Positions 12,811-47,896 of a stretch of 64,000 bases of DNA are shown here, one piece after another. This stretch comes from Halorarum halophilum. Lineage in GTDB: Archaea > Halobacteriota > Halobacteria > Halobacteriales > Haloferacaceae. A program made the position numbers and the translations under genes. The notes under the pieces were generated by a model, which had not been told where the DNA came from, searched no databases, and saw only the letters and a list, made by a program, of their open reading frames with translations. How positions within the stretch are numbered: position 1 is the first letter of the stretch; the number at the start of each line of letters is the position of its first letter. The stretch spans positions 124,001 to 188,000 of the forward strand of contig NZ_CP058529.1 in NCBI RefSeq assembly GCF_013401515.1, in the 5' to 3' direction.

Positions 12811-12922
12811 GCGGTGGCGCGTGCCGGCTGGCCTCCGTGCCAGCCGGATGCGCGCGAGGGATGAGCACCACAGCGCGAACGAAGTGAGCGCGAGGAGCGC
12901 AATCGGTTGGGGAGGGTGTGGC
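12811..12922. repeat. Dispersed haloarchaeal intergenic repeat with a hairpin
   Basis: This non-coding block contains an 8-bp perfect stem CCGGCTGG (12824-12831) / CCAGCCGG (12840-12847) extended by imperfect GCGC pairs. It is followed by GATGAGCACCACAGCGCGAA, a CGAACGAAGTGAGCG segment and AATCGGTTGGGGAGGGTGTG. From memory this text recurs many times in intergenic DNA of haloarchaeal chromosomes; only one copy is in this window. Function unknown. Confidence 0.6.
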
Positions 12923-45094: not shown

Positions 45095-46012
45095 CTACGA
45101 GGCCTCCTGTAGGTCGGCCTCGCCGTCCTCGTGGTGGGCGCGCACCCACAGCTCCCCGATGCGCGAGAGCCGCGTCCGGTAGGACTTCCCGCCGGACTCC
45201 TGCTCGACGTACCCCTTCCCACCCGGGCCGAGCCGGTCGACGTTGTAGATGACCTTCGACCGGAACGCGTCGGTGTACTCCTCGTTCAGCTCCGCGGCGA
45301 GCGACTTCGCCAGGTCGCTCACGGAGTCGAACTCGCCGTGCTCACCGAGCTTGAAGAGGATGACCTCCTCGAACGGCTTGACGTTCGAGAAGGAGGCCAC
45401 CGGCAGTTCGACGATGTGGCTCCCGTCGATCTCCTTCGCGCCGATGGTGACACCGCGCTCGTCGAACTCCTCCAGCAGGTCGCCGGCCGCGCTGAGGCGC
45501 TCGGCGACCCGGTCCTCGTCCACGTCCTCGCCCGCCCGGAGGTCGGCGAGGAGGTCGCGCTCGGCCCGGAGTTCCTCGGCGAGTTCGGTCTCGAGGTACT
45601 TCTCGGGGGCGGTGTAGTAGGTGTGGATGCGGTCGCGGTCCTCCTGGCGCTCCAGGGTCACCGAGTGGGCGGCGGTGGCGAACGCGAACGAGACGGGACG
45701 GGGCATCGCGGAGACGTTCACCCACACCTCGGAGCCGGCGTCGAGTTCGGCGTTGATGAGGTCGTACGCCTGCTCGAAGGCGGCGTCGTAGTCGTACACG
45801 TCAGCGATCGGGACCCGCTCCGTCTCGGCGCCCAGCAGGTTGCCGAAGTCCGTCTCCAGCTTCTTGGCGAGGTTGCGCGAGTACTCGACGTTCGCCTCGC
45901 TCCCCACCGCGCCCTCGAGGAGGACCACGCGATCCACGTCGAGCTGGTCGCGGACGAGGGGCGCGATGAGCCGGTCGTAGTCGAAGCCGACCGGGACGAC
46001 GTGCGTCTGCAT
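45095..46012 (-). CDS. DUF6293 / HFX_2341-type transcriptional regulator, CARF-like plus winged helix
   Basis: 305 residues. Residues 1-115 resemble a CARF/Rossmann ligand-sensing fold: MQTHVVPVGFDYDRLIAPLV, VEYSRNLAKKLETDF, and VWVNVSAMPRPVSFAFATAA, comparable to the N-x-T/S-G-G-T loop of Csa3-type proteins but without Gly-Gly-Thr. A charged helical linker (residues 130-200) leads to a winged helix (about 225-300: FSNVKPFEEVILFKLGEHGE ... GKSYRTRLSRIGELW). No CRISPR genes are in the window. ATG 46012 is preferred over upstream arginine-rich sequence. Confidence 0.75.
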   Translation of the reverse strand: MQTHVVPVGFDYDRLIAPLVRDQLDVDRVVLLEGAVGSEANVEYSRNLAKKLETDFGNLLGAETERVPIADVYDYDAAFEQAYDLINAELDAGSEVWVNVSAMPRPVSFAFATAAHSVTLERQEDRDRIHTYYTAPEKYLETELAEELRAERDLLADLRAGEDVDEDRVAERLSAAGDLLEEFDERGVTIGAKEIDGSHIVELPVASFSNVKPFEEVILFKLGEHGEFDSVSDLAKSLAAELNEEYTDAFRSKVIYNVDRLGPGGKGYVEQESGGKSYRTRLSRIGELWVRAHHEDGEADLQEAS

Positions 46013-46417
46013 TGATTGGTGTGAGGTATTGCTCGGGGTGGGAAAAGCGTGCCGCGATGATTGGTTGGATTCGACTCGCTCGATATCTCCGGTTCGTCTG
46101 CTTTCAGGGCCGACGCGTCCACGACCGTTCCCGTAACCTCGGAAGCCCCCGCGGCTGTCGACTCGGTGCGGCCGCTGTCGTTCGAAAGACTGCGCTTTGC
46201 GCAGTCTTTCGTGATGACGAAAGGCGCTCCGCGCCTTTCGAACCACGCTCCTCGCGCTCCCTTCGGTCGCGCTGCGGTGCTTGTCGGTCCGCGCCTTCGT
46301 CGACAGCCGCGGCCCCTTCCATTCCCCCCTGTGGGCGGTCGGGTGGGGTTTTCAAGTTGATCTCCGCGGTGGTACCAATGACCGAGAACGGAAAGCGATC
46401 GACGAATGATTTCAGAG
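46013..46417. other. 405-bp intergenic region dominated by a structured palindrome
   Basis: No gene. Holds the promoter region of the DUF6293 gene (to about 46060) and the 190-bp palindromic element at 46141-46330. From 46331 to the symporter stop at 46418 I see nothing distinct except an AT-richer stretch (46385-46430). Confidence 0.65.
46141..46330. repeat. Structured extragenic palindrome, long copy (B)
   Basis: Outer arms GGAAG (46141-46145) / CTTCC (46316-46320), a CCC/CCC 3x3 mismatch, then a 14-bp perfect stem 46149-46162 / 46299-46312, with conserved 3' flank ATTCCCCCC. Inside are two perfect hairpins: 46183-46195/46199-46211 and 46218-46227/46231-46240. A GGTGCTTG..GGTCC core (46277-46290) is shared with the copy at 54375. 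Confidence 0.75.
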
Positions 46418-47896
46418 CTAATCAGCGGAGACGCCGAACTTCGCGGCATCCTCTCCTACTGCGGGCGAGGTCACGATCGAGACGCCCACGGTCACGACCG
46501 CGCCCAGCAGCATGCACCACAGGGCGAAGTCCCAGGTGAGGTACGTCGCCGGCAGCGGGAGGAACACGTGCGACAGGTAGGCGAGTTGCCCGACGATCAC
46601 GCCCGACGCGATGCCCCAGCGGGTCACGCCGCCCCAGTACAGCGCGAGCATGACGGGGATGGTCAACTGGGCGTACCCGCCGAACGCCGTGTCGCCGAGT
46701 TCGACGAGGAAGTTCAGTCCGGTGCCGGCGCCCGTGACCAGCGACGCGAGGAAGGTGAGCCCCGCGAAGACGGCGACGCCGACGCGGCCGACCCATCCCT
46801 CGCGCTCGTCGCTCGCGTCCGGCGCGACGAACGGCCGGTAGAGGTCGCGGGTGAAGTAGGACGCCCCCGAGAGCAGCATCGAGTCAGAGGAGGACATCAT
46901 CGCGGCCATCGCCCCGGCGATGACCAGCGCCGCGAACCACACCGGCGTGTACTCCCGCAGGAGCGCGGGGATGACGTTCCCGCCGTCCGGCACCGTGATG
47001 CCGAGCCCCGCGGCCCACGTGCCGAGCAGGAACGTCGGGACGAACAGCAGGAGCACGAGCACCGGCCAGAGCGCGAACGAACGCTTCAGCGTCGCCGCGT
47101 CGCGCGCGATGAAGAACCGCTGGTTCACCTGCGGGAACATCGTCACGCCGAAGGCGATGACGACCGCCGTCGAGATGACGTACTGCGGGCTGTACAGCCC
47201 GCCGCCCAGCGCGAGGAACTCCGGCCTGTTCGTCGCGAGCGCGGAGGAGACCGAGCCGAACCCGCCCGCGGCCGAGAGCACCCACGCGACGGCGATCCAG
47301 ACGACGCCGAGCATGAACAGCCCCTGGAGCGTGTCGGTCCAGGCGACCCCGCGCATCCCGGCCAGGCCGACGTACAGCACCATGAACACGGTGATGAGCG
47401 CCGCGCCGGCCCAGTAGGGAACCGCGCCGTCGGTCAGGCCGACGATGGCCTGGCCGGCCCCGACCTGCTGGAGCATCACGTACGGGAACAGCCACAGCAG
47501 GCCGACGCCCGCCACGACTCCCCGAAGCAGTCGCGAGCCGAAGCGATCCCCGAGCATCTCCCCGAGCGTGACGTAGCCGTGCGCCTGCCCGACGAGCCAC
47601 TGCTTGTAGCCGATGACGTACCAGAGGATGGCGAACAGGATGCCGTCCATCAGCCCCATCACGAGGATCCACTCAGGGCCAGCGGAGAACGCGACGTTCG
47701 GACCCCCGAAGAACGTGAACGCCGACAGCAGGGTGGCGAACGTCGTGAACAGGAGCACCACCGTTCCGACCGATCGGCTCGCGAGGTAGTAGTCCTCGGC
47801 GCTGCGGTCGGTGAGCCGGTAGGCGAGCAGGCCGATCGCGAGCGCGACCAGCAGGTAGCCACCGACGATGCCGAGCGAGAGGCCGACGTCAGCCAC
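46418..47896 (-). CDS. Sodium:solute symporter (SSS family)
   Basis: 492 residues with about thirteen membrane helices; Na+-coupled uptake of an organic solute such as a carboxylate or amino acid. YYLASRSVGTVVLLFTTFAT is the SSS start signature. QVGAGQAIVGLTDGAV and FPQVNQRFFIARDAATLK match the family, with Na+-site serines near MMSSSDSMLLSGASYFTRDL. GTG start; overlaps the DUF3311 gene by 8 bases, the usual pairing for this subgroup (PanF/YhjB-like). Confidence 0.88.
   Translation of the reverse strand: MADVGLSLGIVGGYLLVALAIGLLAYRLTDRSAEDYYLASRSVGTVVLLFTTFATLLSAFTFFGGPNVAFSAGPEWILVMGLMDGILFAILWYVIGYKQWLVGQAHGYVTLGEMLGDRFGSRLLRGVVAGVGLLWLFPYVMLQQVGAGQAIVGLTDGAVPYWAGAALITVFMVLYVGLAGMRGVAWTDTLQGLFMLGVVWIAVAWVLSAAGGFGSVSSALATNRPEFLALGGGLYSPQYVISTAVVIAFGVTMFPQVNQRFFIARDAATLKRSFALWPVLVLLLFVPTFLLGTWAAGLGITVPDGGNVIPALLREYTPVWFAALVIAGAMAAMMSSSDSMLLSGASYFTRDLYRPFVAPDASDEREGWVGRVGVAVFAGLTFLASLVTGAGTGLNFLVELGDTAFGGYAQLTIPVMLALYWGGVTRWGIASGVIVGQLAYLSHVFLPLPATYLTWDFALWCMLLGAVVTVGVSIVTSPAVGEDAAKFGVSAD

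Follow-up and report, generated by a model that had tools for sequence, protein, structure and literature searches.

Two short perfect hairpins lying side by side within a long palindrome raise the question of whether they are an integral part of that palindrome, duplicates of one of its arm motifs, or a separate element that has come to lie inside it. The pair considered here occupies positions 46183-46240 of the window, i.e., the whole 64-kb stretch of Halorarum halophilum DNA (contig positions 124001-188000) that was analyzed. The reading that we favor, with a probability of roughly 0.6, is that the two hairpins are one copy of a small noncoding mobile DNA unit, termed module A, which has inserted into a larger mobile palindrome, termed P1, at its apical junction (Table 1).

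Table 1. Positions in the window of the features of P1 and of the module A copy that it carries
Feature	Position	Strand	Remarks
P1 element, long dispersed palindrome	46141..46320	+	180 nt here; 36 distinct full copies in the same genome
P1 left terminal helix GGAAG	46141..46145	+	GGAAG/CTTCC, GAAAG/CTTTC, or CAAAG/CTTTG among copies
P1 outer stem, left arm	46149..46162	+	14 bp, perfect
P1 second stem, left arm	46165..46174	+	Predicted fold
Module A, inserted double-hairpin unit TCGTTCGA-hairpin 1-TGATGA-hairpin 2-AACCA	46178..46245	+	68 nt; junctions defined by P1 copies lacking it and by L231 versus L010
Hairpin 1	46183..46211	+	13 bp, loop TTT; pairing and covariation
Linker TGATGA between hairpins	46212..46217	+	
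Hairpin 2	46218..46240	+	10 bp, loop TCC; pairing and covariation
P1 apical part, CGCTCCTCG-variable hairpin-GCGGTGCTTGT	46246..46283	+	Limits approximate
P1 second stem, right arm	46285..46295	+	One bulged base; predicted fold
P1 outer stem, right arm	46299..46312	+	14-bp pairing with left arm
P1 right terminal helix CTTCC	46316..46320	+	Extends the outer stem; 46141-46145 pairs with 46316-46320

The hairpins and the enclosing palindrome

The pairing described in the earlier note is borne out. In hairpin 1, CGAAAGACTGCGC at 46183-46195 pairs perfectly with 46199-46211 across the loop TTT; in hairpin 2, CGAAAGGCGC at 46218-46227 pairs equally well with 46231-46240 across the loop TCC, and both are enclosed by the outer 14-bp stem formed by 46149-46162 with 46299-46312. 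The proposal that the whole element could adopt a multibranched structure is likewise upheld by the predicted fold and by compensatory changes in both the outer palindrome and the inner hairpins. When the 186 nt from 46138 to 46323 were folded as RNA against shuffled controls, the free energy was -113.7 kcal/mol, compared to a shuffled mean of -72.1 kcal/mol (z-score of -10.1; 0 of 200 shuffles as good), and folding of the same segment as DNA gave a z-score of -9.0, again with 0 of 200 shuffles as good. No other perfect hairpins with a stem of at least 10 bp and a loop of 3 to 8 nt were found in the 64-kb window; with all loop readings counted, its four entries all come from these two. Dinucleotide shuffles of the window (15 in number) yielded 0 to 10 entries each, with a mean of 2.9, and stems of at least 13 bp in none, which places the 13-bp hairpin outside chance expectation on its own. 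The 10-bp hairpin is not so when taken alone but becomes so because of its close neighbor and its covarying homologs. Chance palindromes are therefore ruled out by the fold z-scores, the hairpin count of the window, and the covariation taken up below.

The enclosing palindrome belongs to a widely dispersed family. A 201-nt P1 query recovered 83 match pieces from the 4.28-Mb genome at an E value of 10 and 63 at an E value of 0.001, with 74 and 73 pieces at the latter value in two genomes of the same genus, and no match in the phage collection searched. Across the class, the 20-nt right end of P1, with at most one mismatch, is present in 213 of 391 genomes and 64 of 86 genera, compared to 0 for the reversed control. 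Copies from the same genome without long inserts span 107 to 120 nt; the 36 full copies were drawn from 38 loci of that genome, with 8 loci holding no full P1 and with overlapping loci and L229 to L231 left out of the set. The two outermost pairs of the terminal helix are paired in 217 of 222 cells across 111 copies selected for their end motifs and for pairing of the inner stem, a choice that left only these two pairs free to vary, and compensatory changes are seen at 16 of the 26 predicted pairs among 27 copies from the genus that lack module A.

At the locus studied, P1 is flanked by minus-strand open frames on both sides (45095-46012 and 46418-47896); an internal ATG was chosen as the start of the first, whose listed open frame extends to 46246. 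The homologs of both flanking genes in genome G002 are approximately 1.3 kb apart, with other sequence and no P1 match between them. According to crude gene calls, 15 of 96 placed copies touch a gene, and the orientations relative to neighboring genes are evenly spread (28, 24, 24, and 20 of 96), for which reason a terminator or 3' untranslated region element is not supported.

The family displays further rearrangements. Copies L006 and L070 from the genus combine normal ends with an inverted interior; in L233, L240, L007, and L071, P1 copies form inverted pairs separated by a few hundred bases; and L063, L067, and L188 have arrays of approximately 55- to 61-nt units upstream of P1, each starting with the P1 left end and, in L188, carrying TTATAA. 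Elsewhere in the window, 12864-12899 is a partial minus-strand match to the P1 apical part that falls in a palindromic repeat of another kind (CTCCCCAGCC...GCGCGC), which follows P1 in several copies elsewhere.

P1 itself is present in some genomes and absent from others at one orthologous site in Halorubrum. A query comprising a neighboring gene and some repeat sequence found matches in 52 of 52 Halorubrum genomes. Thirty loci, one per genome, were read, and exclusion of the 9 without the upstream gene left 21 genomes with both neighboring genes in order; P1, called by pattern, is present in 8 of these and absent from 13, and in 8 of the latter the gap is at most 62 nt. Only one of the 8 copies, L187, carries module A. 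By eye, P1 of L187 is interrupted at three places, each time by a double-hairpin insert, with none in the P1 copies of L188, L190, and L192, and further position-specific inserts of this kind occur in L187, L109, L141, and L173. One such insert family was seen at two places in opposite orientations, the two being reverse complements as judged by eye. In another of the 8 copies, L193, nothing but the outer arms of P1 is left, as would be seen after deletion of the core.

Module A as an insert in P1

The earlier note had regarded the two hairpins as part of the palindrome element and had held that interiors free of hairpins in other copies would mark the pair as an insertion. Comparison of interiors shows this to be the case: 30 of the 36 full P1 copies in the genome lack module A, and the site then reads GCTGCGCTCC. 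The occupied junction reads GCTG-TCGTTCGA...TCGAACCA-CGCTCC, TCGTTCGA and TCGAACCA being the left and right ends of the unit, so that the insertion point is GCTG^CGCTCC, clean and without target duplication. An earlier thought that module A replaces a base C was dropped after this comparison. Of the remaining six copies, five have module A at the usual site, and one (L239) has it inverted elsewhere. Across copies, the unit ranges from 56 to 68 nt, and the bases preceding it are GCTG in 71 of 83 strictly matched copies. Module A is thus an insert in P1 rather than an integral part of the palindrome: it has a clean junction without duplication, it is present in some and absent from other like hosts, and it occurs in both orientations and in several hosts.

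These hosts are diverse. In L013, module A lies within a truncated P1, and in L231 it lies inside another double-hairpin insert, of which L010 is the version without module A. In Haladaptatus and Natrinema plasmids it occurs without P1 ends within approximately 200 nt, and in Natronosalvus its left-side context is unlike P1. The Natribaculum copy is in P1, and that of Haloterrigena is in a P1-like palindrome. Nesting can go one level deeper, as L005 (one of the five usual-site copies) and L013 have another hairpin pair within the linker of module A. Single-hairpin relics of the unit numbered 0 among the loci examined.

With a free gap for hairpin 2, the module A framework was recovered from 59 of the 391 class genomes, representing 21 of 86 genera, compared to 0 for the reversed control. 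Hosts named in 73 stretches include many Halorubrum species, Halosimplex carlsbadense, Haloarcula rara, Haloarchaeobius iranensis, Halolamina pelagica, Natronoglomus mannanivorans, and Haloglomus halophilum. The pattern used to fetch most of the copies contained the linker and the right end, whose invariance is therefore a selection effect, and it left both hairpins and the left end TCGTTCGA free, the counting pattern allowing one change in the left end. This left end hardly varies, even though the search pattern did not cover it. An exact-pattern search of IMG/VR gave 0 matches to module A, the P1 query had none in the phage collection, and carriage by viruses is not supported.

These contexts bear on the most credible of the alternatives, namely, that P1 has module A as an optional structural domain, one not itself mobile and spread by movement of P1 together with gene conversion, the copies without it being losses. 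In its favor, 86 of the 88 module A copies found are at the same P1 junction, although most loci were fetched with a pattern ending in GCTCC, which favors that junction. Moreover, L001 and L002, with hairpin 1 entirely in common, look like copies of one P1 plus its module. However, L231, L239, and the plasmid contexts unlike P1 would each need a separate insertion under this alternative, and a loss would have to restore GCTGCGCTCC exactly. We consider it rather unlikely. Within the favored reading of module A as a mobile unit, its copies at the usual site may nevertheless travel with P1 instead of by themselves. Movement of either element is read here from sequence comparison.

Arm turnover and probable folding as DNA

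Near-perfect pairing is kept in the hairpins while their arms change. Across 91 module A copies, 579 of 592 and 570 of 580 hairpin cells are Watson-Crick pairs, with the arms drawn from a menu that includes AAGGCGC, GACGCC, GAGAGC, and AACGGC. Two alignments free of gaps, with 28 and 20 copies, have 100 and 99.4% of their cells paired, and the covariation scores of 0.232 and 0.302 exceed those of all 500 shuffles (0.093 and 0.105), a comparison in which relatedness among the copies overstates independence. Two further measures are less telling: the number of further pair types is not above the shuffles (reached by 404 and 339 of 500), and the number of pairs changed on both sides was reached by 13 of 500 shuffles in the second alignment.

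The suggestion that the two hairpins are themselves duplicates of one arm motif is not supported by this survey, as like arms were found within one unit in 0 of 91 copies. The expectation was 10.2 (P = 5e-5, ignoring relatedness, by which the arm shuffles too overstate independence); with only distinct arm pairs counted, the figure is 0 of 39, with 2.4 expected (P = 0.06).

How arms and loops vary was followed in 51 pairs of copies, drawn from 86 copies and sharing members, whose flanks are at least 80% identical (102 hairpins). The arm is the same in 37 hairpins, of which 18 have another loop, 14 have the same loop, and 5 have the loop reverse complemented. It differs in 65: by length in 27, at three positions in 17, at two in 9, and at one in 12. 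Loop reversal is exemplified by L001 and L002, where hairpin 2 has common arms with loops TCC and GGA, which are reverse complements, and is limited to those 5 of 37 like-armed hairpins. The least probable alternative, to which we give very little credence, explains such patterns (37 hairpins with the same arm, 44 differing in length or at three positions, and 21 differing at one or two, with near-perfect pairing between like-flanked copies) by template switching during replication, which would generate and repair perfect palindromes at a hotspot with no element moving, but one framework in 21 genera with a nearly invariant left end TCGTTCGA, found also at sites unlike P1, needs descent or insertion of one unit.

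A third alternative is that P1 and its inserts form a structured noncoding RNA with its own promoter, the hairpins being peripheral RNA helices under selection for folding. The strong predicted fold and the compensatory changes in P1 and the hairpins would be in keeping with it, and its best point is that 22 of 36 P1 copies of the CAAAG type have a TATA-like motif 25 to 48 nt upstream, on the 5' side of their left end, which would suit transcription. However, this motif is found in just 3 of 74 other copies. Mismatches of the G·T kind (G·U in an RNA) are not significantly in excess over A·C in either P1 (9 versus 20; P = 0.06) or module A (11 versus 5; P = 0.21). GNA triloops closed by C-G are known to form very stable DNA minihairpins. 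Triloops of the form GNA or TNC account for 129 of 177 in module A, against baselines of 6 of 57 (window) and 17 of 160 (shuffled sequence), and they are balanced between the strands (65 GNA and 64 TNC). This even strand balance and the inversions, including that of the P1 interior in L006, argue for DNA. The linker TGATGA resembles a C box, but an archaeal C/D box RNA was rejected, as CTGA is absent from both strands of module A. No Rfam family matched at its gathering score in the whole window or in the further stretches searched; the best match below threshold, at 46182-46244, is to STnc290, with 29 bits against the 60 needed, and serves as a lead only. STnc290, a two-hairpin RNA of Salmonella, is located immediately 5' of an IS200 transposase gene (PMC2515195). 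Taken together, the loops, wobble counts, and inversions favor, as far as sequence features can indicate, folding as DNA rather than RNA, and the RNA alternative appears improbable. Probing of a transcript, which the earlier note had proposed, is accordingly the less likely route to a test.

Relationship to known elements and possible mobilization

Single-strand transposases of the IS200/IS605 kind would be expected to produce just such a duplication-free insertion of a two-hairpin unit. Yet, Y1 transposases (PF01797) were undetected in the genome studied (G000) and in G001, G002, and G013, while being detected in the other 8 of the 12 genomes searched, and TnpB (PF01385) had no match in G000. 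Mobilization by TnpB or Y1 from the same genome is hence not supported, and the mobilizing enzyme might have been lost, belong to another family, or be one not yet recognized.

By its way of working, module A is best read, by analogy, as a haloarchaeal double-hairpin mobile element that stands beside REPINs, SMRs, and mitochondrial double-hairpin elements while being a member of none. The mitochondrial elements of Allomyces reportedly consist of two hairpins with a short spacer and are noncoding and mobile by inference; they resemble module A in architecture and differ in being organellar. As in REPINs, which are REP doublets behaving as one unit (PMC3116915), and in GTAG REPs, a pair of short hairpins forms a single unit in module A, dispersed and mostly intergenic. 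It differs in having no GTAG on either strand of 46178-46245, in the lack of a detected Y1 (RAYT-like) gene in its own genome and the other two of the genus, and, compared to REPs generally, in being haloarchaeal and nested in a larger palindrome.

CGTC REPs offer a parallel on some counts. According to PMC3733652, these are defined by a CGTC tag at one end, an 8- to 9-bp stem, a 4- to 5-nt loop, and a CCA tail; they have no dedicated transposase and mostly end in CCA, and in most families heterodimers are preferred over homodimers without an obvious explanation. Module A likewise ends in CCA, avoids like hairpins, and has no detected transposase, but its single CGTC is on the minus strand and in the linker rather than at an end, and its loops are mostly 3 nt.

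The SMR-A elements of Haloquadratum, as described in PMC3119063, are approximately 110 bp long, have prominent inverted ends and neither a transposase nor a target duplication, and insert in PATE/IS605 palindromes. Module A shares with them the haloarchaeal setting, the absence of duplication, and the use of another mobile element's palindrome as a target, but it is 56 to 68 nt long, has two hairpins, and lies mostly in P1, the comparison being with the published description. PATE/IS200-IS605 ends resemble it in being palindromic and free of target duplication (same source), the difference being that TnpB was undetected in its own genome and Y1 in the three genomes of the genus. The repetitive hairpin elements of sponges, relatives of the mitochondrial double-hairpin elements, conserve their stems and vary their loops (PMC2800124), whereas the arms of module A change. 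Finally, the ends TCGTTCGA and TGGTTCGA match at 7 of 8 positions when inverted, as might be expected of a MITE, but there is no target duplication; a parent transposon was sought only as Y1 and TnpB. The open-access library searched, including passages of PMC3119063, PMC7230728, and PMC11431627, yielded no description of the P1/module A family.

We propose that module A would move as single-stranded DNA with its two hairpins serving as recognition ends and that an enzyme acting in trans would paste it into its target. The hairpins would form in living cells, as a consequence of which tips and whole palindromes could flip, and hairpins could be swapped between copies. Like arms in adjacent hairpins would presumably not be tolerated, because they would cross-pair or recombine.

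More tentatively, and against the odds as we see them, haloarchaea may harbor class-wide nested double-hairpin DNA cassettes: the framework would stay almost constant while entire hairpins are exchanged, tips and whole palindromes would invert, and each unit would have to hold two mutually orthogonal hairpins. If so, these cassettes would preserve natural evidence that hairpins extrude in living cells, and their existence would imply an unrecognized enzyme that recognizes and pastes hairpin DNA. With the framework in 59 and the P1 right end in 213 of the 391 genomes, the family constitutes a large natural data set that bears on how small palindromic DNAs move without a transposase, on hairpin extrusion in vivo, and on the avoidance of alike paired hairpins.
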